Under the pieces are notes generated by a model. The model searched no databases and had not been told where the DNA came from. It saw nothing but the letters and a program-made list of their open reading frames with translations. Positions 4,647 through 34,819 of a DNA stretch of 35,558 nucleotides are shown in pieces. Each line of letters opens with the position of its first letter. Positions within the stretch are counted from its first letter, which is position 1. This stretch comes from a virus, in IMG/VR virus record IMGVR_UViG_3300049489_000672, positions 1 to 35,558 of that record, one strand, 5' to 3'. A program made the translations under genes and the position numbers.

Positions 4647-5477
4647 TTACACGTAGCTTGGCACGAATTGCTCGTACTCATTCTTCACACCGTACTCCGT
4701 AGAGTGGATGTAGATCATGGTACTTTCTATGAACACGTGACCGAGCTGTTGTTTGACTGTGAGCAGGTTTGCCCCTCGATTCAGCATGTTTGTGGCAAGT
4801 GAATGTCTGAGAAGGTGTGGCCATACTCTCTTGGTAAATCCTGCTCGCTTGGAAACTGTCTTAACAAGTTTTCTGAGCGCTGCGCCGAGATATTTCTTTT
4901 TTCCGTTCGGTGCTATCGTCGTGAACAAGAAATCATCATCGCCTCTCGGATATTTCTCAAGATATGAGAGCAGTGATTTTATACAATGCCCGGACACGTA
5001 GACGATTCTGTCCTTGAGTCCTTTTCCTTGAGTAATTCTGAGGGTGTTGCTCCCAAAGTCGATGTCTTTCACTTTGAGATTGCAGAGCTCCTTGTTTCTG
5101 ATGCCGGAGTAAGCAAGTGTGGTGATGATTGCGACCTCTCTCGCGTTGTGGCAGCTAAATATCATTTTAGTGATCTCAGCTTCCGACAACGGAGTCTTGA
5201 GGAGCAACTTTGGTTTTTTCTGACGGCCGAAACGTGTCGGTGTCCCGATAAAATCCATCCACTGCTCAATGCCCAGTACCGTATTGATCTTGTGACTATA
5301 CGAGTACTCGCTGCGGTAGAGATCATAGACGTAATCGTCCATCTCTTCGATTGTCGGTTTGAGCGTTCCGAGCTCGCGCAACACTTTTCTAACGACCGTC
5401 ACATATCCTCTGACAGTGATGGGTTGAAGTCCTTTTTTGATAAAAAGAAACTTCTGAAAATCTTTATATTCATCCAT
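4647..5477 (-). CDS. Second tyrosine recombinase, XerC/D-like
   Basis: A 276-residue protein with the full catalytic set: Arg127 in SGIRNKE, Lys152 in QGKGLKDR, His221 and Arg224 in HLLRHS, His247 in LGHVF and Tyr256 in MIYIH. An N-terminal core-binding domain covers 1-85. It is clearly distinct from the first integrase. Its place beside the fibre genes and upstream of the lysis cassette is unusual, because an integrase normally borders the attachment site. Options are resolution of genome multimers, use of a Xer/dif-type site, or DNA inversion affecting the nearby fibre genes. I saw no pair of matching inverted repeats around the fibres. A promoter and attenuator-like leader precede it. Confidence 0.85.
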   Translation of the reverse strand: MDEYKDFQKFLFIKKGLQPITVRGYVTVVRKVLRELGTLKPTIEEMDDYVYDLYRSEYSYSHKINTVLGIEQWMDFIGTPTRFGRQKKPKLLLKTPLSEAEITKMIFSCHNAREVAIITTLAYSGIRNKELCNLKVKDIDFGSNTLRITQGKGLKDRIVYVSGHCIKSLLSYLEKYPRGDDDFLFTTIAPNGKKKYLGAALRKLVKTVSKRAGFTKRVWPHLLRHSLATNMLNRGANLLTVKQQLGHVFIESTMIYIHSTEYGVKNEYEQFVPSYV

Positions 5478-8291: not shown

Positions 8292-8302
8292 GTTGCATTA
8301 CT
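8292..8302 (-). promoter_or_regulatory. AGTAATGCAAC motif, copy 2
   Basis: Minus-strand AGTAATGCAAC, with its TAA serving as the stop codon of the HNH gene. It lies about 40 bases upstream of the fibre gene at 8256. GAAAAA follows and a CCTATAG string lies about 20 bases beyond. Confidence 0.65.
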
Positions 8303-8933
8303 TCTTTACAGGAGTCTCAAAAACCCTCTCTATTGGCCAACCTTCGTCAACCCTAGATCGGAGTACACTATATGGAATATTAAGTTTTTCTGCCCATTCA
8401 CCTATCCACATTCTCTCACCTTTGTAAGTAAATATTCTGCTTTTTCTTGTATTTCTCGCCTGCTCTGTATTTGTAACCCATCGACAATTTTTCCTTGAAT
8501 AGTTGCCATTCACATCAATGCGATCAATTTCTGTATCTTTTTCTCCAAAAGAATCTACGTGTGCTAGATACGCGTCATACATATCTGTTTTAAATTCATC
8601 AAAGGACTGCCAGTCAATTTTTATACCCCTGCCACCATAGTCTTTATAACTTCTTGTTTTCTGATTCAAACATCGGCTACGCATATTTGTCCAAACTTGA
8701 TAAAATTTTGTGTAGCGAAGTCCATGTTTTCTGATCACATTTTTTGTGAAATTTTCTCTTGAGTAGCAACCACAACTTTTTGAAACTCCTTTTAAAACGG
8801 CCCACAAACGAATTGCTTTTACTTTTCCACAGTCACATTGAAATACCCAGTGAATCTTTCCCCACCTGTCTCTGTGAGAAAAGTTTACAGCTGTCAGTTT
8901 CCAAATTTTTTTGCCTTTTATATTATCTTTCAT
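8298..8933 (-). CDS. HNH homing endonuclease
   Basis: A 211-residue protein. The core (about 90-170) reads as a phage HNH/AP2-type endonuclease: FYQVWTNMRSRCLN, the YKDYGGRGI element, TEIDRIDVNGNYSRKNCRWV and the EQARNTR ending. An N-terminal zinc-ribbon-like part (CDCGK, with CGC about 20 residues later) and a C-terminal helical DNA-binding tail complete it. It is most likely free-standing, inserted between the virion genes and the fibre. I see no intron boundaries interrupting a conserved gene next to it. Its insertion may have brought the flanking motifs into their present spacing. Confidence 0.85.
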   Translation of the reverse strand: MKDNIKGKKIWKLTAVNFSHRDRWGKIHWVFQCDCGKVKAIRLWAVLKGVSKSCGCYSRENFTKNVIRKHGLRYTKFYQVWTNMRSRCLNQKTRSYKDYGGRGIKIDWQSFDEFKTDMYDAYLAHVDSFGEKDTEIDRIDVNGNYSRKNCRWVTNTEQARNTRKSRIFTYKGERMWIGEWAEKLNIPYSVLRSRVDEGWPIERVFETPVKK

Positions 8934-24157: not shown

Positions 24158-25840
24158 TCAGATGCCGATGTCAGGGTATTGAGGTCCAATATCGTCGATT
24201 TCTTCCTCGTATGCAGAGCGGACACGCTGAAAAGGGTCATTTGGCACGCTCACCGGCGTATCTTCGCGCGGTTTTTCCACCCCTGCAGGCTTTGCAATGT
24301 CGCTCTGATAGGCAGTTGCATCGCTGCAGTCGTCATGCTCGGCATGTGGAAAACGAATAAGCTCGCCCTCGAGGTCATTACACTCTCCCTCAATGTGTCG
24401 AATGCTCTTTGACTCGTAGCGATATAGCAATCCTGTTCTGATTCGGTCTTCCTTTGAGCGTCCTGCATGTTTGAGCCAGTGGAGCGAGAAGAATACCTGT
24501 CGCTTTCTCATCTCTGCCCGGAGCATAGGCTCAAGTCCTCGTGTGTATGGCGTGTCTTCCCAAGCCATGCGAATGAGTGGCACTCCAAGCTGTGCGAGAT
24601 ACTTCACTGTGTCAAACATCTTCTCGATGATTGCAGTAGGCCCGAGCCTCTCCCTGTTTGCTTTGAGGTGCCAAAGCCCCTCGGTATCCACGAAGTTGAT
24701 GCAGAAGCCCACATAGTCGCCATTTTGATCTACTTCGCCCTCCTTTCGGCTTGGCGTGTCAATGGTGACATACGTAGCAAGACGCTTCTTGAGCACTTCA
24801 TCAAGACTCACAGGAATAAACCACTGTCGCTTGAACAGTGCGCGAGTCTCATCAACAGGCTGACAGAGCATCTCAGCTTGAAAATCAGCGTCACCCTCTT
24901 CCGGCGTCCACATTGAGCGTTTCTTTGCCTCTATGCTGACCTTTCCTGTTACCCTTGCTTCCTCGTCAGTGAGCACCCATCTTTCGGGCCATGTAGGCGA
25001 ATGAAGTCCGGACATGAGAGTCCCTTGACATATCGGCACAACACGCACACGCAATTCAGGATCATGCTTTGCTCGCTCCATGACGCTCTGCACATTTCCG
25101 TATTCACTCAAAATGTTTCCAAGATAAAGCACGCGCCTTCGAGCAGAGTCGAGGCCTCGCTTGAATTCTTGAATATGCGTACGGATCTGCTTCGTAACAG
25201 CATCGCTCTTGAGCGTCTTCTTTGTCTCAAAGTCGTCGAGAATGACAAAGCCCGGGCGCATTGCTCCATGCACGCGACCTCGCACGCTCTCCTGCGTTGA
25301 GTGAGCCTCGACACGAGTACCTTCCTTGAGAATGTTCCCTGTATCATCCTTCTGCGGATTCGTGATGAAGTCCTTGACTCGCTTCATGGTCACTTCGTCC
25401 GGCGATCGAGTGGTGTTGTATTTCTCCCCGAAGTCCTTGCGGAATTGCACATTTTTCTGCAGCTCCCATACAACGTCAAAGAGGATACGCTCTGAGTTTG
25501 TAGTATCGAAAGCATCGGCGTTGATGTACGGCTCGATGTCGAATGCGATCATGTAAAGGACCAGTGCTTTTGCAAAAGATGTCTTCGCACTTTCTCCGAA
25601 CATAAACCAAGCGAGTTCGCGTATTTTAAAATCAAGAAGGTCATGTACGTCAGCCATCATGTCGTAATGAAAAGGCGCAAAGGTGCTGCGCACGTAGTGA
25701 GGTAGATAGTACACGATGAAGTATCCGAAATGCTCTCGGACCGCTTTGAGGCGTGCGTCTCTACTTGCTTCCTTGAGGAATTGAAGCCCCTCTGCCGTTA
25801 TTGGCCGGAGTCTTTGTGTCGGCTGTGGGTTTTGTATCAT
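24158..25840 (-). CDS. terL: Large terminase subunit
   Basis: A 560-residue packaging motor. The ATPase domain has a Walker A-like loop GESAKTSF (82-89), a Walker B strand GFVILDDFE (197-205) and a coupling motif near LGNIL (240-244). The nuclease domain shows Asp361 in VTIDTPS, Glu428 in MAWEDTP and the acidic cluster EHDDCSDATAYQ (501-512). A C-terminal tail from about 520 is Pro-rich. The start at 25840 overlaps the small subunit by 80 bases, which implies coupling. It translocates DNA into the head and cuts at the ends. The packaging mode (pac or cos) cannot be read directly. Confidence 0.93.
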   Translation of the reverse strand: MIQNPQPTQRLRPITAEGLQFLKEASRDARLKAVREHFGYFIVYYLPHYVRSTFAPFHYDMMADVHDLLDFKIRELAWFMFGESAKTSFAKALVLYMIAFDIEPYINADAFDTTNSERILFDVVWELQKNVQFRKDFGEKYNTTRSPDEVTMKRVKDFITNPQKDDTGNILKEGTRVEAHSTQESVRGRVHGAMRPGFVILDDFETKKTLKSDAVTKQIRTHIQEFKRGLDSARRRVLYLGNILSEYGNVQSVMERAKHDPELRVRVVPICQGTLMSGLHSPTWPERWVLTDEEARVTGKVSIEAKKRSMWTPEEGDADFQAEMLCQPVDETRALFKRQWFIPVSLDEVLKKRLATYVTIDTPSRKEGEVDQNGDYVGFCINFVDTEGLWHLKANRERLGPTAIIEKMFDTVKYLAQLGVPLIRMAWEDTPYTRGLEPMLRAEMRKRQVFFSLHWLKHAGRSKEDRIRTGLLYRYESKSIRHIEGECNDLEGELIRFPHAEHDDCSDATAYQSDIAKPAGVEKPREDTPVSVPNDPFQRVRSAYEEEIDDIGPQYPDIGI

Positions 25841-26489
25841 TTTCTTTTTTCGCTTGGCTTATAACTTCGACCTGTGCAGGCAAACGTCCGAATAGCTCAA
25901 AAATGCGTGCTTCCTGCTCCGGCGTCACCTGCACGCCTCCTTGGATCTTCTCGCCCTTCGTCGTGAGATCCTGCTTGCCGATCTGCGTAGGCTCTCCGAG
26001 TTCGGTCTTGATGATCTTCCATGCAGCCTCGACCTCTTTGTGGTCTGGCGTTATTTCGACGAATATAGGCTGGCCATCACGATCAAGCAGCACATCACCT
26101 TTTGTGTTCTTTAAGGGCACCTGTCGAGTCTCTATGAGGCCTACAGCACGTTGTATGGCGAGTATCTTACTGTCTTTGAGCCCCTCAATGACCTTAGTAG
26201 CCCTTTTTAACCTAATTTCGTCTAATCTTTCGCAAAAAAAATATGTGTTGCAGTAGTATTTCAGCTGATTGTAGCTCTTGAATTGGCAATCAACATCCCT
26301 CGTCATGGCGAGCATGTTGCCGTTGTGCTTGTCGTAGTAGGCAAAGAGCGTGTCCCTCTCCTTCGGGTTCAGTGGTCTGTATGGCGGTTTCTTGGTAGCC
26401 CCTTGGTATACCACTGGTTGCACAGGCGAAGGCACCGCAGTCTCCTGTGGCTTGGTGTCTTTATTCTCCTGTGTCTTTTCGTCTTTCAT
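25761..26489 (-). CDS. terS: Small terminase subunit
   Basis: A 242-residue protein. A Pro/Gln-rich N-terminal tail (1-40) is followed by a helix-turn-helix region (about 45-105, LNPKERDTLFAYYDKHNGNM then the SYNQLKYYCN segment). A helical oligomerisation region follows, and a C-terminal Thr/Lys/Pro-rich tail comes from about 205. The LTTKGEKIQ string near 175 is a frequent small-terminase feature. It overlaps the large subunit by 80 bases and is coupled to the upstream small ORF by ATGA. Its role is DNA recognition for packaging. Confidence 0.75.
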   Translation of the reverse strand: MKDEKTQENKDTKPQETAVPSPVQPVVYQGATKKPPYRPLNPKERDTLFAYYDKHNGNMLAMTRDVDCQFKSYNQLKYYCNTYFFCERLDEIRLKRATKVIEGLKDSKILAIQRAVGLIETRQVPLKNTKGDVLLDRDGQPIFVEITPDHKEVEAAWKIIKTELGEPTQIGKQDLTTKGEKIQGGVQVTPEQEARIFELFGRLPAQVEVISQAKKENDTKPTADTKTPANNGRGASIPQGSK

Positions 26490-26680
26490 TTTCTAAAAAT
26501 AACGTCATCAATCACAATGGTCAGATCGTCGCCAGTTTTATGGTTTGTCCGGTTGCCCATCTCTTTAATTCCGTAGGTATGTAGGCCATACCCATCCCAT
26601 CCCTTGAATTTATGGCGCAGTATGTCGTTAATTACATAGGCGATCACTTTCTTGAAGATGTATTGTTTGATTTTATTCAT
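26486..26680 (-). CDS. 64-residue hypothetical protein upstream of terminase
   Basis: A small basic protein (KQYIFKKVIAYVINDILR) with a mixed second half (GIKEMGNRTNHKTGDDL) that ends in two short beta strands (TIVIDDVIF). It is coupled at both ends by ATGA overlaps with its neighbours. I do not recognise it. Confidence 0.5.
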   Translation of the reverse strand: MNKIKQYIFKKVIAYVINDILRHKFKGWDGYGLHTYGIKEMGNRTNHKTGDDLTIVIDDVIFRK

Positions 26681-27048
26681 GTGAATATTTTTCTTATAAA
26701 GTTTCGTATCGTATTAACCCTCTTCGCTCGGTTGATTGCCTTGCGTAGCTCCCTGCGCCTCCCCTTCTCCGCTTCCCACTTTGTCGCTTTTGCTTCCTTG
26801 TGTGCCTCGAATGCTTTGCGCTTGGTGTTTGCGAGCTCGATCTTTGCTTTAGGATCCTCTCGGTGATAGTTGTACTTCCACCTTGAGAGTATGCGATTTT
26901 CAAAGTTGTGCCGGCCGTCAGTATGGAACTTGATGAAGACAGCGCCCGAGTCGAGCACCTCGCAATGCTCCATCAGGAAGTCCCACACTGCCTCTTGGTA
27001 TCCCTTGATGTCCGGAGTGTACTTGTAGTCATGGCTGTTCTCGGGCAT
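26677..27048 (-). CDS. Hypothetical basic helical protein
   Basis: A 123-residue protein. The N-terminal half (1-60) is a mixed fold with KFHTDGRHNFENRIL. The C-terminal half is a long, very basic helix (TKRKAFEAHKEAKATKWEAE onward). It could bind nucleic acid. It overlaps the next gene by four bases and belongs to the coupled run leading into the terminase. Confidence 0.5.
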   Translation of the reverse strand: MPENSHDYKYTPDIKGYQEAVWDFLMEHCEVLDSGAVFIKFHTDGRHNFENRILSRWKYNYHREDPKAKIELANTKRKAFEAHKEAKATKWEAEKGRRRELRKAINRAKRVNTIRNFIRKIFT

Positions 27049-27060
27049 TTTTTCATGGAT

Positions 27061-27483
27061 TTATTGCTTCTCCATCCACCCGGTCATGCTTGATTCGTTG
27101 CACGCCCCAACCTTTCCACTGTCGTCAATGTACTCGTATGTCGGCTTGTTGTTCTTCTGAGGGATGATGCCGATCACAAGGCGCTCCTCGCCTCGATGGT
27201 TCCGGCAGATGGTTCCGAATGTGTAAGTCATCTTCTGCTCAGGGTTTTTCTTCTCCCAGATAGCCTTGAGCGCTCCGAAGAATTCGACTTGAATTGTCTG
27301 CAGATACGCGATGATGGCGTCCTTCTGCTCAGTCTTGAAAATAGGCAGGATTCCATGAGCGCCGATGATCCATGCTCCGACGAGGTCCGGGCGAGCTGCG
27401 AGGAAGCGTGCTGATAGGTTCAAAGGGTTCTTTACCTCCCTTGTTTCTGCTTTGATGTCGGCTTTTTTGTTTATTTTAGGCAT
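27061..27483 (-). CDS. Hypothetical protein downstream of HTH regulator
   Basis: A 140-residue protein. Lys/Glu-rich up to residue 18, then a compact alpha/beta fold (DLVGAWIIGAHGILPIFKTE, then the ERLVIGIIP strand). The C-terminus has an ACNESSMTGWMEKQ motif. No family recognised. Its start lies 13 bases inside the upstream regulator gene and about 40 bases after motif copy 7. Confidence 0.5.
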   Translation of the reverse strand: MPKINKKADIKAETREVKNPLNLSARFLAARPDLVGAWIIGAHGILPIFKTEQKDAIIAYLQTIQVEFFGALKAIWEKKNPEQKMTYTFGTICRNHRGEERLVIGIIPQKNNKPTYEYIDDSGKVGACNESSMTGWMEKQ

Positions 27484-27935
27484 AGTGTTGATTCAATGTT
27501 ATTAAAAGATTTACTGTTAAGGCGTTGCATTACTTCGAAGACGAAAGGGTCAGGTGCCATTGAGTCGGATCCGAGGATTTTTCCGCAACAGGCGCACCGT
27601 ATCGACCATAGCTTGTGCTGACATCCCTCCTGTCGCTTGATCCTCTGCTCTTCCTCCCTGTGTTGGATGTAGGCGTAGGATCCTCTGAGCTTCTTCTCGG
27701 ATCTCACCCTCTTCCGCTCTCGGTATACCTCGATCACTTCCTCCGGCATCTTCCGGACCACCGGCACCCTGCGCACCCAACCGTCAAACTGGATATGGTA
27801 AAAAATAGAGCTCCGATTCACCCCGAGGAATACGGCGATGTGGGCCATCTTCCAGCCCTTTTCCTCATAGAGCAGTCGGGCGTCTTCTACGCCTTTCGTG
27901 TCCAGTTTGTGTCTTGGATTATTTACATTGCGCAT
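27471..27935 (-). CDS. HTH and zinc-ribbon DNA-binding regulator
   Basis: A 154-residue protein started at the ATG at 27933-27935. The longer frame to 28049 is rejected because it would be translated through a terminator hairpin. Residues about 12-45 form a helix-turn-helix (EDARLLYEEKGWKMAHIAVF, then LGVNRSSIFYHI). A highly charged helix follows (about 55-95), then a possible zinc site (CQHKLWSIRCACCG). It has its own extended -10 promoter and attenuator-like leader, so it is probably a regulator rather than a structural protein. It is a candidate activator of the GTAATGCAAC sites or a late-gene switch. Confidence 0.55.
   Translation of the reverse strand: MRNVNNPRHKLDTKGVEDARLLYEEKGWKMAHIAVFLGVNRSSIFYHIQFDGWVRRVPVVRKMPEEVIEVYRERKRVRSEKKLRGSYAYIQHREEEQRIKRQEGCQHKLWSIRCACCGKILGSDSMAPDPFVFEVMQRLNSKSFNNIESTLCLK
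27524..27534 (-). promoter_or_regulatory. AGTAATGCAAC motif, copy 7
   Basis: Minus-strand AGTAATGCAAC followed by GCCTTAACAGTAAATC, about 40 bases upstream of the gene starting at 27483. Unlike the other copies it lies inside a coding region, near the end of the HTH regulator gene, where it is translated as part of VMQRL. Confidence 0.6.
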
Positions 27936-27952
27936 TGATAAATTTGGAATAG

Positions 27953-28001
27953 AAAAAGCTCGTAACGAGCCGCCGAAAAAAATTCGGCAAACGTTACGAG
28001 C
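27953..28001 (-). terminator. Intrinsic terminator or attenuator in the regulator leader
   Basis: A perfect outer stem GCTCGTAACG with CGTTACGAGC (27992-28001 and 27958-27967) and an inner stem GCCGAA with TTCGGC run into TTTTT. It stands between the promoter at 28014-28042 and the regulator ATG at 27935. Transcription would end after about 50 nt unless terminator formation is prevented. Confidence 0.7.
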
Positions 28002-28013
28002 GTTGATGAGAAA

Positions 28014-28042
28014 ATTATAACACATCAGTTTCAAAATGTGCA
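28014..28042 (-). promoter_or_regulatory. Extended -10 promoter for the HTH regulator
   Basis: The minus strand has TGTTATAAT, an extended -10 with a perfect TATAAT (28014-28019). A fair -35, TGCACA (28037-28042), lies 17 bases upstream. It overlaps the region just after the methyltransferase stop codon. Confidence 0.65.
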
Positions 28043-28052
28043 TGTGCACAAC

Positions 28053-28596
28053 TCATCCGATGTGGACATCGCTCTCCACTTCGTCGCCGAACACGTCCCA
28101 TCCATCATTTTTTTCTCTTGCAAACATTTCAAGGCGCGGAATATCTCCCATGAGCTCGACGATTCTTCTTCTCACCTCGTCTGGTTTCTTGCTGTGCTTC
28201 GTCCGCTCCGCAACGACGAGCTGTCTGATGTTTTTTGCAAGCCTCTTTGGTTTACCTTTGACACCCAAGAGGCACATTTCTACATTTCCCATGGTCCACC
28301 GGCCGAGATTTGCCACATCCTTGCCGTTTTTCGTGCGCTTGGACCATACGAATGCGACCGTTTTATATTTAAAGCCCCATGCTTTCATCACCTCGAACGC
28401 TTCCGGCAAAAGAGGAGATACCGCCCATAAGAATAAAACACAATTATCATCTGCTACCCCCCCGAACGTTTAGCGAGGCGATCCAATTCTTGCTCTGCGT
28501 TTTATATTCATGATCAAGCGAAAAGGAATGCCCGGACATCTTGTCGTTGTAGCTCCATGGCGGATCAGCGTAAATTATTTGGTACTTCTTGCTCAT
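28053..28596 (-). CDS. MT-A70 adenine-N6 DNA methyltransferase, split by a G7 tract
   Basis: The ATG at 28594-28596 opens a frame with the DPPW catalytic motif at residues 11-14. It reaches a run of seven G (28457-28463, minus strand) at codons 45-47 and then stops at 28447-28449. Deleting one G restores a single 180-residue reading frame through VADDNCVLFLWAVSP and the downstream part (KAWGFKYKTVAFVWSKRTKN, WTMGNVEMCLL), the recognisable remainder of an MT-A70 fold. As written the gene is off. It would modify adenine in DNA, protecting phage from restriction or changing expression. It is coupled to the preceding small ORF (ATGA). A sequencing error in the homopolymer is the main alternative. 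Confidence 0.75.
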
Positions 28597-28880
28597 AGCT
28601 TTACTTCTACCGTTACCTGTCCGCGATCAAACTTCTCCTTTCCAACAAGTGAGATGATTGCATTCTGAATTTCGTCGTCCTTCATGCCGCGTATGTCGTA
28701 CCATTTTCCGGCGTAGCAGATCACCACTCGCTGAAACTCGCCTTGTCGAGCCTGTCCGATGATGTCATTCGCTTGTTCTCTTGTAATTTCTTTCATGTTG
28801 AATTGTTTAGAATACTGGCCGAGCTTTATAGCGACACTTCGCTGACCGTCTATGAAGCCCTGCCAGTAAGTTTTAGTCAT
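28593..28880 (-). CDS. Hypothetical small protein before the methyltransferase
   Basis: A 95-residue alpha/beta protein (MKEITREQANDIIGQARQ, VVICYAGKWYDIRGM). No recognised domain. It is joined to its neighbours by four-base ATGA overlaps on both sides, so it is translated as part of the coupled run that ends in the methyltransferase. Confidence 0.5.
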   Translation of the reverse strand: MTKTYWQGFIDGQRSVAIKLGQYSKQFNMKEITREQANDIIGQARQGEFQRVVICYAGKWYDIRGMKDDEIQNAIISLVGKEKFDRGQVTVEVKL

Positions 28881-29200
28881 AAATCAAAGAGTCGAGGATT
28901 TTCCTTTTCCTCCAAGGTTTCTCTGTAAAGTTCACGCATTGAGAATTCCTCTGACTTCGACCTGCCAAGGATATTCACGCGGATTCGTCCTTTTCCACCC
29001 CTCACCCATCCGTACTCGAGCGAGTACCACCACGAGCCTTCTCCACCCTCCATGTGTAAGAGCCACTCTAGATCATCTCCAAAAGCAAACACTCTTTTGC
29101 GCATCCAGTTTTTTGCTATTTTCCGCAATGAGCATTTAGTCGCAATTTCTTGATCACGCCAGTGCCATTGTCTGCTGATTTTCAGTGCTTCTGAGATCAT
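28877..29200 (-). CDS. Hypothetical small protein
   Basis: A 107-residue protein, rich in Trp and charged residues (SRQWHWRDQEIATKCSLRKI, then WWYSLEYGWVRGGKGRIRV). A beta-hairpin-like centre and a helical tail are visible. No recognised domain. It is coupled by ATGA overlaps to the YopX gene before it and the small ORF after it. Confidence 0.5.
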   Translation of the reverse strand: MISEALKISRQWHWRDQEIATKCSLRKIAKNWMRKRVFAFGDDLEWLLHMEGGEGSWWYSLEYGWVRGGKGRIRVNILGRSKSEEFSMRELYRETLEEKENPRLFDL

Positions 29201-29637
29201 TTTTTATTTTTCTTAGGCTCATCGGGCACTCGATCAAACTCAGGATTTTGGTATACATTGCCGATAATCTCGTACATGTGTTCTTGATTTCCTATCTCCA
29301 CGAAAGTATCGAGGCCTTTGTCTGTGTCCGCCTCTGCCGGCCATAGCTCATCCGGAGAGTAAAGCTCGAATTTCGCATGATCTTCCATCCAAGTGACCTC
29401 GAATAGGTTTCTGTGGACCTTGTAGATGTAAGGGTTGTCTTTCCACTCAAAATACCTAACGATGTCATTTTCATAGATCGGCTTATCGTGCCTGTCATAG
29501 ATCCCTGTAAATTGCATCAAGCATTTAAAAGTTTTTTGATGTTTAAAAAACTCTTCGAGGCTCGTATAGTCATCCGAGTAATACATGTAGCCGTCTTCGG
29601 TCCATGCTCTGTATTTTGTTGGTGTTCGAGAGATCAT
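29197..29637 (-). CDS. YopX family protein
   Basis: A 146-residue protein. The YopX signature is visible: CLMQFTGIYDRHDKPIYEND near the middle and a C-terminal YEIIGNVYQNPEF. YopX proteins are common in phages of many hosts but have no established biochemical function. It is part of the coupled early operon. Confidence 0.85.
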   Translation of the reverse strand: MISRTPTKYRAWTEDGYMYYSDDYTSLEEFFKHQKTFKCLMQFTGIYDRHDKPIYENDIVRYFEWKDNPYIYKVHRNLFEVTWMEDHAKFELYSPDELWPAEADTDKGLDTFVEIGNQEHMYEIIGNVYQNPEFDRVPDEPKKNKK

Positions 29638-29813
29638 TTTTGTGGAGTTGGTCCTATAAGCTTTTCAATTTTTCGCTCCATCTCATCAAGTATTTCTCCG
29701 ATTGTGTGGATCATATTCAGAGCAGTCGCCAAGTGCTTTGTGTCGGGATCAAAGTTTTTATATCGCTCCTCCGATGCCTTTTTCATGTCTTCGATTCTTT
29801 CAGATGGTTTCAT
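29634..29813 (-). CDS. Small charged helical protein (59 residues)
   Basis: The ATG at 29811-29813 gives MKPSERIEDMKKASEERYKN and a further 39 residues, ending in LIGPTPQK. Its stop codon overlaps the YopX ATG (ATGA), so it fits the coupled operon. It is predicted to be helical, with possible oligomerising heptads from about 25 to 52. No family recognised. Confidence 0.55.
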   Translation of the reverse strand: MKPSERIEDMKKASEERYKNFDPDTKHLATALNMIHTIGEILDEMERKIEKLIGPTPQK

Positions 29814-29817
29814 ATTT

Positions 29818-30135
29818 TTATTTCATGATGTTATGTACTTCCGGATCGACCTTTGGATGCTTTGATGTTGCAAAAGCAAGATACTCGAGCTCATCACGTG
29901 AGAAGCCGTCCGACAAAAAACCTCGCGCAGCTGACAGTGTTCCGTCTCTCAGCGCTGCAGCGATGTCGTCAGTAGACTTTCCGTCCATGGACCACGTCAC
30001 CATCACACCCTCGTGATATATCTCTGTGACCACCCCTTTAGTGCCGGATGGAATCCCGGAGAAGCTTGCTAGCGTCATGCACACCTCTCCGAGAGTGCAC
30101 TGCTTTTCGTCTATTCTTTTCGTAAGGAAAAACAT
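29818..30135 (-). CDS. Hypothetical protein with SH3-like segment
   Basis: A 105-residue protein. Residues about 22-50 (GIPSGTKGVVTEIYHEGVMV) read as a small beta-barrel or SH3/KOW-type segment. The C-terminal half is helical (DIAAALRDGTLSAARGFL) and carries acidic and basic residues. The function is unknown. It lies between RusA and the small charged protein in the early operon. Confidence 0.5.
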   Translation of the reverse strand: MFFLTKRIDEKQCTLGEVCMTLASFSGIPSGTKGVVTEIYHEGVMVTWSMDGKSTDDIAAALRDGTLSAARGFLSDGFSRDELEYLAFATSKHPKVDPEVHNIMK

Positions 30136-30139
30136 AAAT

Positions 30140-30583
30140 TTATTTTTCTTTGGTTATTTTTATAAATACTTTTCCGACTCCATCATCCGCTTTTTTGCTC
30201 TCAAAGGATCCTGCTGTAACATTCTTGTCGTTCACAAAAAGAGCATCGAGAATTCCTTTAAAAACATTGTCACCGTCGGCATGTGCCTCGTTGGCCCATT
30301 CGATGCGGATGTCCATGCGTGCTGTCGACTTATCGAGGCGTATAGGCTTTGCAGGTCTGCCTGTTCTGATCATTTCCCGGACCGCCTGCTGATTATCGAG
30401 ATCGAGATGGAATCCGGATGTCTTTGCAGCTCGTTCGAACTGCTGCACAACATGGTCCTTCCACGCCCCATACCGGAGTGCTTTGTCAGTCCACTTGGTG
30501 CCTTGCGTGACGCGCGTGTAGGGAATCGGGTTGCCCTTTGGATTTTCTTGATTGCCGGTTATTACGAATTCGATGATCTGCAT
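30140..30583 (-). CDS. rusA: RusA-family Holliday junction resolvase
   Basis: A 147-residue protein. The RusA signature HADGDNVFKGILDALFVNDK (101-120) supplies the clustered aspartates (Asp103, Asp105, Asp113, Asp119) that bind the metal in this family. The N-terminal strand pattern (EFVITGNQENPKGNP) fits the fold. It would resolve branched intermediates made by RecT-mediated annealing before packaging. It follows the DnaC-like gene by four bases. Confidence 0.85.
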   Translation of the reverse strand: MQIIEFVITGNQENPKGNPIPYTRVTQGTKWTDKALRYGAWKDHVVQQFERAAKTSGFHLDLDNQQAVREMIRTGRPAKPIRLDKSTARMDIRIEWANEAHADGDNVFKGILDALFVNDKNVTAGSFESKKADDGVGKVFIKITKEK

Positions 30584-30587
30584 GGTC

Positions 30588-31124
30588 TTAGATGTTTACC
30601 TGCACTTTTTGCACGCTTTCCATTCGGCGATCTTCTCCAACAAGCTCGATCACGTCACACATTTCGACGATGCGCGATGCCGTACGATCTCCCACTCGGT
30701 CAGCAAGGTCAGCGATCGGAAGGTTCGAGGTGAAAATGATCGGCAGGTTTTCTTGGTAGCGGTGATTGATGATCAGGTAGAAAGTCTCTGCAACGAAGTC
30801 GGTTATCTTTTCAGATCCGATGTCGTCGAGAAACAGTAAGCCTCTCGAGCCCATGATGCGCTCTTCCTCGCGGTCCCTGTCATAAAGCTTCTTGTCAAAA
30901 TCGTTCTTGATCGATCGTAGGAGCTCGGTTGTGTTCCAAAAGATAGATTTTCCTCCCTGCTCGTCCCAGTGTTTCTTGAGAGCGTATGCGATGTGAGTCT
31001 TTCCGGTGCCCACAGGACCATGGATATACATGCCTCTACGAGTTTCGCGAATCTTCTCAAAGCGCTCGCGGATGTCCTGCGGTACTTTTTCGTATTCTGC
31101 GTTTTGATATTTTGGTGGAATCAT
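30588..31124 (-). CDS. DnaC/IstB-like AAA+ helicase loader
   Basis: A 178-residue AAA+ ATPase. Walker A is GPVGTGKT (36-43), Walker B is LLFLDDIG (96-103), FTSN (131-134) serves as sensor 1, and RTASRI (147-152) supplies the arginine finger. Size and motif spacing match phage DnaC/DnaI-type loaders. It probably delivers the host DnaB helicase to the phage initiator. Its start overlaps the initiator stop codon (ATGA), so both are coupled. Confidence 0.88.
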   Translation of the reverse strand: MIPPKYQNAEYEKVPQDIRERFEKIRETRRGMYIHGPVGTGKTHIAYALKKHWDEQGGKSIFWNTTELLRSIKNDFDKKLYDRDREEERIMGSRGLLFLDDIGSEKITDFVAETFYLIINHRYQENLPIIFTSNLPIADLADRVGDRTASRIVEMCDVIELVGEDRRMESVQKVQVNI

Positions 31125-31807
31125 AGATTTTTGTATTTACCTCCTGCGACGCTGCCGTCTCTTTCTTTGAAATCTCGCTTGACCGCATTGATCAGGAATG
31201 ACTTATAATTTTTGTACACTTTGCCCTTTCTCTCGCAATAGAGCTTGAGGTCCTCGCCCTTGCTCTTGATCTCTTTTTCCGTTGCATTGAATCGTCCTAG
31301 AAATTCTTTGATGTCTTCGGGTGGAATGTTAGACAGGTAGCTGATTGACGCGGTGCTCTTCTCTTCCCTTACCTTACCTTCTCTTAACTTCCCTTCTCTT
31401 CTCTTACGCGGAGCATTGTCTCCCTCTGGTATGTCGTTGGTATCCCTTTGGTTGTCAGAAGGAAATTGACCATCTGGACCGGGGTATTCTGCTCGTCTCG
31501 GCCGGTCACTTCGGAACGTCTGAAAGCTGTCGAAATTTAGAATCTCGATGTACTTTTCTCCCTTGATTTCGTAGATCTGTATGAGCTCGTTTTGCACCAT
31601 AAGATCGAGATCCTGCTGCACTTCCTGCTCAGTGATCGTCCTCATCGGCACGATCTTCGCCTTGATGGATATGGCGTCTCCCTCGAGGTGTCCGAAGTCG
31701 TCTGTGTGCGGAATAAGCCATGTGTAGAGAAGAGCAGAACGATCGGGCAGGCGGTTCACCTTACGGCTCGTCGATATTGTTTTTGAAAGCATGCGTCGTT
31801 CAGCCAT
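31121..31807 (-). CDS. Phage replication initiator-like protein
   Basis: A 228-residue protein. The N-terminal 100 residues form a winged-helix-like region (WLIPHTDDFGHLEGDAIS, TEQEVQQDLDLMVQNEL) typical of phage replisome organiser proteins. A charged, low-complexity linker (about 115-150, RKRREGKLREGKVREEK) precedes a C-terminal helical domain (about 155-215). It sits directly upstream of the helicase loader, as initiator genes usually do. The origin is not identified. Confidence 0.65.
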   Translation of the reverse strand: MAERRMLSKTISTSRKVNRLPDRSALLYTWLIPHTDDFGHLEGDAISIKAKIVPMRTITEQEVQQDLDLMVQNELIQIYEIKGEKYIEILNFDSFQTFRSDRPRRAEYPGPDGQFPSDNQRDTNDIPEGDNAPRKRREGKLREGKVREEKSTASISYLSNIPPEDIKEFLGRFNATEKEIKSKGEDLKLYCERKGKVYKNYKSFLINAVKRDFKERDGSVAGGKYKNL

Positions 31808-31811
31808 AAAA

Positions 31812-33944
31812 TTATTTAATGTTAAACCCTTGAAGTCTCACGAGGCCTTTGTTGCCCGGATACATAAAGAGCATGTCGCCCTTTCCTGCAAGCCTTTCCG
31901 CTCCGGGTACTCCAAGGATCACAACAGAATCAGTCGGTGAAGATGTGGTGAGCGCGATACGTGTAGGAAAATTCGCTTTAATAAGTCCTGTAATAACATC
32001 GACCGATGGCCTTTGAGTAGCCACAATGAGGTGTATACCAACTGCTCGAGCCATCTGCGCGAGCCTTACGATCAAGAGCTCGGCGTTTGCGTCCACTCGA
32101 TTGAGCTCGTCCTCTGCATCGTGATTCTCAAGAATCTCGATGAGATCCGATTTTGTGAAATGGTTTATCGGTGCGAGTCCGCCAGAGCCGAGCTTTGAAG
32201 CTTTCTTGTAAAGCCATGGCTTGCTTTTCGATGAGTAAGATGGACCTTTGTTGCCTTCCTGCGCCTTCGCCTTGATCATGAAGTTTGCGAACTCGTCGAT
32301 CACGACAACTCGGTAAGGCAATCTCTTTGAATGATCGCGCTTTGAGGCATTGAATTCGCTGATGTCGCGCTTTCCTGCCTTTTCGAGGATCTTGTAGCGG
32401 TTTTCCATCTCGTCCACGAGGCCTAGAAGGGCGCGTATCGTGTCTTCGTACTCGTATATGACCTTTCCCTCGACATGAGGCTTTTTGGCAAAGCTACGAA
32501 GCTCTACACGCTTAGGATCAATCAAAGTGAGTCGAAGCATCTCCGGTGTCATCTGCTTGGTGAGTGCCTCGAGTATTGTGTGCAGCAATACCGATTTTCC
32601 GGATCCTGTAGATCCTGCGACAAGCAAGTGAGGCATCTCATCTAGTGGAACGTACATAGGCGTGCCGTTTACGTCGACTCCGATAGGGATTGAGAGCGTA
32701 TCTTTGATTATGAAGTTGTGATCAAGCTTTATTGATGTTCGCTTTTCATTCTCAACCTCAACGCCGATAAGGGATGTTCCGGGAATTGGCGCAATGATCC
32801 GCACGTCTCCTTTAACCTCGAGAGCTCGTGTGATGTCATCCTTGTGTTTTTTAATAGTCGACATTCGCACTCCGGCCGACACCTTGAATCGGTACTGAGT
32901 CACTGATGCGCCTACTTTAGTCTCAACAGGCTCGACAGGTATGCCGAACTCCGCGAGACGCACTTTTACCTTTTCTTCCGGCAAGAGGTTTTTATTGATG
33001 TCGCTATCGAGGCGAGAAGCAACGAACTTCTTTGAGGTAAAAGCAACATCGCGGACCTTGTGCATGACCTCAACGTCCGACATGTCGGAGCTGATGAGTC
33101 CTTGCGAGTATATGGTCCATGCGTGATCGCCGTCGAATGTGTCTGAGAGGTTTGGTAGAAAGACAGGATCACTTGAGAGGAACTTCACGACATCCTTGTA
33201 CAGGTTGTCGAAAATGATGTCATAAGGCTCGTGATCGCAAGGCACAACCCAGTCTCGAATCTGTGGCGGTCTTTTTCCTGTGAGCTCGTCGACTTTGTTC
33301 TCAGTGCGCTTTATTTCTCGGAAGATAACTCTGCGAATCTTGATACCCATTGCAGAGAAAACAAGCCTTTTCAAAAACATCGCTTGAATGATTTTGATGC
33401 CATCCTCGTCTTCGAAGTCTGTAAATTTGTCCTTTACTTTGAAATCGATCACGTCGACGCTTCCATCTCTGTTTTCGACGACAAGATCGGGCTTACCGAC
33501 TCCGGGCAAAGGAAGAATGTCGCCATGCAATGACTTCATTTCTCCTTCGAGCTTTGTCTCGCAGGCAAGGATGTTGTGGTACTGAGGCTCTTCGGCAAAA
33601 TAGAAGTCGAGAGCTTTTGTGTATCCTGTGAGGATTGCCTCTCTGCTTCCGGTCTTTCCGTAGTTGATGTATTCATCGTTCTGCTTTGCGATGTAGTCGA
33701 GGCCGAATTGTCTTGCCTCGCCGCGTGCCTCGATTGGATCCGCTGATACAGGTATGTCTTTGTGACCTCCGTAGTAAAGTTTTAGAGCTTCGTGCACAGC
33801 TGATCCGATGACACCCGATACACCGAGCTTTGTGTCATACACACCGAGGATTTCCTTCATCTTAAAGATGATCGGATTTCGCAAGAGTTGAGTGAGCGAA
33901 GAATATGACAGCTTCGACACCGGCATTAGTCTTTGTTCACTCAT
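31812..33944 (-). CDS. Fusion of RecB-like PD-(D/E)XK nuclease with FtsK-type DNA translocase
   Basis: A 710-residue protein. Residues 1-260 form a RecB/Cas4-like nuclease: SYSSLTQLLRNP near 13-24, His51 in IGSAVHEAL, Asp153 in GKPDLVV, the IDFK motif (Asp167, Lys169) and Gln187 in IIQAMFLKR. Residues about 335-405 match the FtsK alpha domain (RIIAPIPGTSLIGVEVEN). Residues 415-710 are the FtsK/HerA motor: Walker A GSTGSGKS (444-451), Walker B VVVIDEF (546-552) and RLAQMARAVGIHLIVATQRP (627-646). A ~60-residue insertion follows Walker B, and the gamma domain is absent. It overlaps recT by ATGA. I infer that it resects DNA ends processively for RecT. Confidence 0.9.
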   Translation of the reverse strand: MSEQRLMPVSKLSYSSLTQLLRNPIIFKMKEILGVYDTKLGVSGVIGSAVHEALKLYYGGHKDIPVSADPIEARGEARQFGLDYIAKQNDEYINYGKTGSREAILTGYTKALDFYFAEEPQYHNILACETKLEGEMKSLHGDILPLPGVGKPDLVVENRDGSVDVIDFKVKDKFTDFEDEDGIKIIQAMFLKRLVFSAMGIKIRRVIFREIKRTENKVDELTGKRPPQIRDWVVPCDHEPYDIIFDNLYKDVVKFLSSDPVFLPNLSDTFDGDHAWTIYSQGLISSDMSDVEVMHKVRDVAFTSKKFVASRLDSDINKNLLPEEKVKVRLAEFGIPVEPVETKVGASVTQYRFKVSAGVRMSTIKKHKDDITRALEVKGDVRIIAPIPGTSLIGVEVENEKRTSIKLDHNFIIKDTLSIPIGVDVNGTPMYVPLDEMPHLLVAGSTGSGKSVLLHTILEALTKQMTPEMLRLTLIDPKRVELRSFAKKPHVEGKVIYEYEDTIRALLGLVDEMENRYKILEKAGKRDISEFNASKRDHSKRLPYRVVVIDEFANFMIKAKAQEGNKGPSYSSKSKPWLYKKASKLGSGGLAPINHFTKSDLIEILENHDAEDELNRVDANAELLIVRLAQMARAVGIHLIVATQRPSVDVITGLIKANFPTRIALTTSSPTDSVVILGVPGAERLAGKGDMLFMYPGNKGLVRLQGFNIK

Positions 33945-34783
33945 GATATTATTTCTTCGTTATCCGGAACGCTCTGATCTTCGTCTCCGGTGCTGTGTAA
34001 TGCTCGACCTGTTGCGATACCCGACGCGTCACGATTGTCTCGAATGATGTTGCTGTCCTTGTTGTCCTCATCAATAGCTTTTGCGATGGTGTCGTTCTTT
34101 GGAAGAATCTTTGCAAGCTGCTTGATGCAGGTCTTTCTCCACATGTGGAGCTCGGGATCGTTCTTTGAATTCCAAGGCGAATACTCAGATCCTTTTGCCT
34201 GTGAAAATTCCTTGAATTTCAAAACCTCTTCCTTGCTCATCACCTTAAAGACTTTCTCTCCGTTCACGACTGCGATCGCATATACGGCGATTGCGTCACC
34301 TTTCGCACCAACAAGAGTCGGCTTGTGAATGAGTTTTGCTTCGAGCCCCTCTTCGTATGTGAAGTCATCGTTTGCGTAAACGATGTTTGTCTTGATTGCT
34401 GAGACTCCGGCGCGGTAGAGAAGTGTGATGATTCCTTGGTAGCCAAGCTGAAACTGCGCCTTGCCTTTGTATGGCAACACGTATGCTTCGCCGGATACTG
34501 TCGAAGGATAGAGCTTGTACTCTGCGCACGACATGAATGCCGTCATGAGAGATCCTTTGTCACATTTCAAAAGCTCAGGGATTTTCTGCACAGATCGAAC
34601 GATTGAGCTCATGAATTTGAGAGCCTCTTCCTTGTTGCCCTCGAAGTAATTTGTGATTTGTTTTTGGTAGTCGCCGACGAGTGAAGCTTTGAATACTTCG
34701 ATGTCCGTCATCGGCTTTTTGTTCGGAGTAGTGACAACATGTGTCGCTACTTCCGGATTTTCTTGATTGTTTTTTTCAGTCAT
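33941..34783 (-). CDS. recT: RecT single-strand annealing protein
   Basis: A 280-residue protein from the ATG at 34781-34783; five codons more are possible from 34798. RecT hallmarks are visible: LYPSTVSGEAYVLPYKGKAQ, FQLGYQGIITLLYRAG and HMWRKTCIKQLAKILPK. The acidic, Thr/Asp-rich C-terminus is usual. It anneals complementary single strands for recombination and for concatemer formation. It is coupled to the following nuclease-translocase by an ATGA overlap, so the two are almost certainly partners. Confidence 0.92.
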   Translation of the reverse strand: MTEKNNQENPEVATHVVTTPNKKPMTDIEVFKASLVGDYQKQITNYFEGNKEEALKFMSSIVRSVQKIPELLKCDKGSLMTAFMSCAEYKLYPSTVSGEAYVLPYKGKAQFQLGYQGIITLLYRAGVSAIKTNIVYANDDFTYEEGLEAKLIHKPTLVGAKGDAIAVYAIAVVNGEKVFKVMSKEEVLKFKEFSQAKGSEYSPWNSKNDPELHMWRKTCIKQLAKILPKNDTIAKAIDEDNKDSNIIRDNRDASGIATGRALHSTGDEDQSVPDNEEIIS

Positions 34784-34819
34784 ATTTAGTGGGTCCATTT
34801 ACCCCTGCTCATACGCTCC

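Follow-up and report, generated by a model that had tools for sequence, protein, structure and literature searches.

In a phage genome, the catalytic motif of an adenine methyltransferase lies in one reading frame and the rest of its fold in another, and the two parts meet exactly at a run of seven Gs. Is this gene decaying, is its sequence in error, or is the run of Gs a switch? The window, that is, the whole stretch of DNA analyzed here, is an IMG/VR record of 35,558 bases. As it carries integrases, tail, portal, terminase and replication genes, it represents a temperate-type tailed phage. Two separate integrases, both phrog_1, were found in this record (514-1644 and 4647-5477, minus strand). 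The features relevant to the question are as follows.

28053..28596, minus strand: MT-A70 family DNA adenine methyltransferase gene (Pfam PF05063, 94.6 bits; PHROG_359, 258 bits)
28457..28463, minus strand: G7 homopolymer tract, proposed slippage switch, at an OFF length (seven Cs on the plus strand)
28447..28596, minus strand: 49-residue OFF-state stub, by plain ORF reading
28555..28566, minus strand: codons of the DPPW catalytic motif, residues 11-14, by translation
28053..28456, minus strand: downstream two thirds of the methyltransferase, intact, out of frame with DPPW (PF05063, 70.2 bits alone)
28593..28880, minus strand: upstream ORF with no family match; its stop and the methyltransferase start share ATGA
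30140..34798, minus strand: replication/recombination module (RusA, DnaC-like loader, replication initiator, PD-(D/E)XK-FtsK protein, RecT), upstream and in the same direction

The length of the tract sets the reading frame of the methyltransferase. With its seven Gs, plain reading from the ATG at 28596 gives the stub, in which DPPW is intact and a stop follows just past the tract. With one G fewer, 180 residues are read with no stop to 28053. This read-through protein matched PF05063 over profile positions 1 to 172 of 172, far above the cut-off of 23.9 bits, and the downstream part also matched on its own and contains no stop. Translation and Pfam searches thus confirmed what the earlier note had claimed from the letters, namely that the parts of an MT-A70 enzyme in different frames are joined at the G7, that DPPW is intact upstream of the break, and that removal of one G yields a continuous methyltransferase. 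That note gave no strand; gene and tract are on the minus strand. No lesion beyond the frame of the tract was found in the 180 codons. D11, P12 and W14 were invariant across the 30 aligned sequences.

A structure model of the read-through protein had a pLDDT of 89.4, and its best PDB matches were MTA1 and METTL3 (Foldseek; 7yi8, 5tey; E 6e-15 to MTA1). In the model, the tract codes for residues 45-46, in a turn ahead of the strand formed by residues 48-58. Both this site and a second tract site described below are helix-to-strand turns in the model.

The overlap between the stop of the upstream ORF and the ATG at 28596 indicates that the two genes probably form one operon, and the methyltransferase probably belongs to an operon in which it lies downstream of the RusA, DnaC-like, PD-(D/E)XK-FtsK and RecT genes. 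The PD-(D/E)XK-FtsK protein of that module (31812-33944, minus strand) has 710 residues, combines a PD-(D/E)XK nuclease with FtsK/SpoIIIE motor domains, and adjoins RecT (33941-34798). The ORFs scanned on either side of the methyltransferase, three upstream and four downstream, contained no nuclease family, and an HNH endonuclease is present at 8298-8933, some 19 kb away. No other PF05063 or PF01555 gene was found in the record. Searches for phage relatives of positions 26000-31000 returned three records with short matches only, and no plasmid relatives of positions 24158-28596 were found.

Could the tract be there by chance? A first-order Markov model predicts 0.87 runs of at least seven Gs or Cs in the whole window, and runs of six Gs are not enriched in it (3 seen versus 5.5 expected). 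The tract alone is weak evidence, because a G7 or C7 somewhere in the window is expected by chance, and the argument must therefore rest on relatives. Within the 544 bases of this gene, the coding strand is expected to hold a G7 only 0.012 times. The position of the tract at the frame break, together with its recurrence in relatives, is far beyond chance.

Relatives were collected in two ways. A protein scan of IMG/VR gave 80 relatives, and a second scan starting from one of the in-frame relatives (L099) gave 80 loci, one of them common to both. After removal of genes under 350 bases and of near-duplicates, these 159 loci left 110 dereplicated MT-A70 genes. Tracts of at least seven Gs were present in 11 of the 110, a set that leans towards tract-bearing relatives since the query proteins themselves carry the tract. 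This corresponds to 0.186 per kb in the genes (11 in 59 kb) against 0.017 per kb in the flanks (13 G runs, next to 5 C runs, in 775 kb), an 11-fold enrichment. No poly-C run of at least seven was found in the 110 genes. The frame was broken in 5 of the 11 genes with such a G tract, in 1 of 19 with an A or T run of at least eight, and in 0 of 80 with neither. One relative in this set (L052, position 1433) is the sole frame-broken gene to be broken at a T9 rather than at a G run. G9 and C9 runs also occur near, but outside, tract-free methyltransferases of two relatives (L008, 3321; L014, 4840).

Pattern scans for a G run at a fixed distance from conserved motifs yielded further stretches; because such scans pick out tracts by design, the numbers they give cannot be read as prevalences. 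G8 after DPPW gave 22 stretches, 17 of them with MT-A70 genes (L082, L093, L094, L101 and L102 were dropped as chance), and G7 before xCVLFLW gave 13, 11 of them MT-A70 (L105 and L108 dropped). Among 12 stretches from bacterial genomes 4 were MT-A70 and 8 were discarded as chance, and a scan for the second site returned 11, with 10 MT-A70 genes and one stretch dropped (L203). The orientation of the run mattered: C7 in place of G7 before xCVLFLW gave no stretch, and C8 in place of G8 after DPPW gave 8, 7 of them dropped as chance and 1 MT-A70. That MT-A70 gene (L216, 1618-2151, minus strand) has an in-frame C8, coding for prolines, at the usual poly-G site. Downstream of the methyltransferase, three relatives carry poly-C runs (L034, 6102 and 6249; L035, 2158 and 2304; L036, 3597 and 3743) whose lengths differ, 10/9/9 at the first position and 8/7/7 at the second, possibly marking further switch genes.

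At site 1, the position of the tract in the window, 30 distinct records carry G7 to G11 at the same codon position, each counted once. Both states occur among them, the window being counted as OFF.

Site 1, in frame (10 records): L002, L004, L009, L090, L099, L100, L125, L092, L104, L107
Site 1, out of frame (17 records): window, L023, L058, L085, L086, L088, L089, L095, L097, L098, nd4 (L103), L106, L109, L112, L113, L120, L144
Site 1, without a frame call (3 records): L083, L119 with its partner contig, L145

Open-frame length was rejected as a means of calling the state, as it placed the GC-rich L089 and L097 among the ON copies; homology of both halves shows that they are OFF. About one third of the records are in frame, as expected for tracts of random length; this is more in line with frequent slippage than with occasional error. 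The nd4 record annotates its broken methyltransferase as two CDS; this genome comes from a human gut virome and was sequenced on the MiSeq platform (PMC10743442; raw data in PRJNA1027629).

We then compared tract lengths between close genomes. Over 10,531 bases, L009 and L023 share 99.98% identity, the only differences being one mismatch and one G in the tract, which is G9 and in frame in the former, G10 and out of frame in the latter. These two could be assemblies of the same or of sister reads. L085, L144 and L145 are 93-95% identical and have tracts of G10, G7 and G9, respectively; 75-100 substitutions and 0 gaps separate them from each other in the 1,500 bases that follow the tract. No length variation was found within two near-identical sets, L090/L099/L100 (G9) and L112/L113/L120 (G10). 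In Oscillibacter sp. ER4, entered as a strain and not as a MAG, the gene is halved over two contigs of 66,278 and 41,459 bases, and both end in nine Gs exactly at the tract. Such a break would be expected if reads disagree on tract length. These differences in length between near-identical genomes concern relatives and not the phage of the window itself.

Tracts also occur at other places in the same gene. The second site lies in the ELM-G turn, at about residue 149, and has both states in 11 records (4 ON, 7 OFF). The third is represented by one relative.

Second site, in frame: L183, L207, L208, L211
Second site, out of frame: L022 (=L204), L201, L202, L205, L206, L209, L210
Third site, in frame: L016, G8

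Calling by joined HSPs had placed L202, L205 and L210 among the ON copies, their last 30 residues having no separate hit, and this call was rejected after a frame check showed that they are OFF. A tree was built from 125 representatives of 195 gene rows. Tract presence changed on it at least 16 times, with gains and losses pooled; taken alone, site 1 accounted for 10 changes and site 2 for 6. As this was a quick tree without shuffle control, the argument for independent origins rests on the separate sites and not on the tree.

The same arrangement was found beyond MT-A70. DPPY is the motif of other adenine methyltransferases, and a scan for G8 behind DPPY returned 46 stretches of phage contigs (the L223-L263 set) with G8 to G13. 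Homology on both sides of the tract, scored with nine query proteins from this same DPPY set, placed 14 of 29 copies in frame and 15 out of frame, with 17 of the 46 left unclassified; the C-run control described above covered the MT-A70 patterns. Of the 15 OFF copies, 9 were in phase 1 and 6 in phase 2. Pfam assigned eight of nine DPPY proteins to N6_N4_Mtase and one, L228, which has no frame call, to the D12 class.

Are the broken copies still maintained? In three pairs in which both members are OFF, dN/dS was low on either side of the tract: 0.096 upstream and 0.126 downstream for L085/L144, 0.117 and 0.049 for L086/L095, and 0.094 and 0.086 for L089/L097. Some other OFF-OFF pairs were too diverged for dS. 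The 16 OFF copies examined have no stop on either side of the tract. Both halves are under purifying selection in out-of-frame pairs, which is not the pattern of decay.

Taken with the state of the gene in the window, these data make it likely that the DNA adenine methyltransferase of this temperate-type phage is phase-variable, a contingency gene, and that the window shows it in the OFF state. The earlier note had proposed such a switch, and the comparison with relatives supports that proposal through length variants, ON and OFF states, the second site, selection and the break of the Oscillibacter assembly within the tract. The main rival to slippage on DNA is recoding at expression, in which slippage of RNA polymerase or of the ribosome on the G run would supply a constant share of full enzyme at any tract length. 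Some phage and IS genes are established examples of recoding at homopolymers. It would account for purifying selection on both halves even in out-of-frame copies, and for OFF copies being common (17 of the 27 scorable records at site 1). Programmed frameshifting fixes one direction, however, and we found no single direction across relatives, as the OFF copies are spread over both phases: the shift required by L095 and L106 is opposite to that of L084 and L086 at site 1, L202 and L201 are in opposite phases at site 2, and the OFF copies of the DPPY type fall in both. Recoding also has no need of the differences in tract length between near-identical genomes, and in-frame alleles exist. We therefore regard it as unlikely.

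Sequencing or assembly error would mean that the true gene is intact and the G count of the contig wrong. Homopolymers, long G runs included, are error-prone, and the breaks or ends of several contigs coincide with the tract (L119, L145). A tract of seven is nevertheless short for Illumina error. Errors should affect a minority of records, yet 17 of 27 are OFF, and A or T runs of at least eight came with a broken gene only once in 19. Nor can error create the tract itself, with its enrichment over the flanks and its absence as poly-C; this explanation appears very improbable. A plain pseudogene, left by a one-off frameshift and now decaying, would fit the OFF state of the window copy, and no second copy or ON sister of the window phage was present among the sequences returned by the IMG/VR protein scan. 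Against decay stand the lack of a second lesion in 180 codons, the dN/dS of about 0.05-0.13 between broken copies and the ON alleles at the same tract in relatives, so that we give this reading hardly any credence.

How might a phase-variable methyltransferase of this kind operate? The polymerase would slip on the G run during replication of the phage DNA and add or drop a G, although seven Gs are short for fast slippage. About one length in three would leave DPPW and the rest of the MT-A70 fold in one frame. Genomes with such a length would make the full enzyme, which would methylate adenines of phage DNA and perhaps of host DNA. Other lengths would give the 49-residue stub and leave the DNA unmodified, so that the phage population would contain modifying and non-modifying genomes side by side. 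The likeliest benefit would be bet-hedging: modified DNA would survive ordinary restriction enzymes, and unmodified DNA would survive methyl-dependent (type IV) nucleases or be spared the cost of methylation. Switching may in this way help the phage to escape restriction. With the DPPY set included, we lean towards a broader proposition, that phage DNA adenine methyltransferases as a class have repeatedly been made into contingency genes (MT-A70 at three sites, N6_N4 behind DPPY), the switches keeping phage populations mixed for methylated and unmethylated genomes as a hedge between ordinary and methyl-dependent restriction. In prophages they could switch host expression, as a phage-borne phasevarion.

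If this is true, phages keep both states of DNA modification in a population, as do bacteria with phasevarions, and the sensitivity of a phage stock to restriction is a heritable mixture. Phage methyltransferases annotated as 'pseudogenes' would then often be switches, and a phage methylome taken from one stock could mislead. The trade-off between ordinary and methyl-dependent restriction would become directly testable with one gene. Poly-G at fixed methyltransferase positions is a signature that can be mined, and it comes with natural pairs of ON and OFF alleles.

Poly-G tracts have reportedly been found in over 100 phage genera. In the open-licence literature searched, we found no report of a phase-variable methyltransferase encoded by a phage, and the accessible parts of two papers on gut-phage methylomes (PMC10711547, PMC10477858) mention no phase variation or frameshifts of phage enzymes. 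The closest folds, Tetrahymena MTA1 (TM 0.80) and METTL3, belong to eukaryotic complexes and are 25-30% identical to the phage protein. Serratia phage BZS1 has an orphan methyltransferase of the same MT-A70 family, likewise phage-borne, for which the available text of its source describes neither a tract nor switching (PMC7556043).

Poly-G phase-variable methyltransferases of bacteria are already well known. One example, as given in the accessible part of its source, is a Helicobacter M.Hpy300X-like type III methyltransferase gene with a G9 (PMC12003011). As far as these accounts go, the bacterial phasevarion enzymes resemble the present one in having a poly-G within the coding sequence of an adenine methyltransferase and a truncated OFF product; they are restriction-modification genes, whereas the enzyme described here is small, solitary, of the MT-A70 family and carried by a phage. 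In phages, the excerpts available of PMC11868660 and PMC11959909, which describe Sorensen et al. 2021 (Cell Rep 35:109214), report poly-G phase-variable receptor-binding proteins in Campylobacter Fletchervirus phages. On that description the likeness is close, as a coding poly-G borne by the phage switches a gene on and off and yields a mixed phage population. The Fletchervirus target is a receptor-binding protein, in a host that itself uses poly-G, whereas here it is a DNA methyltransferase in other phages. Poly-G switching is thus known for the receptor-binding proteins of Campylobacter phages, and in the literature searched the methyltransferase appears to be a new target for it.
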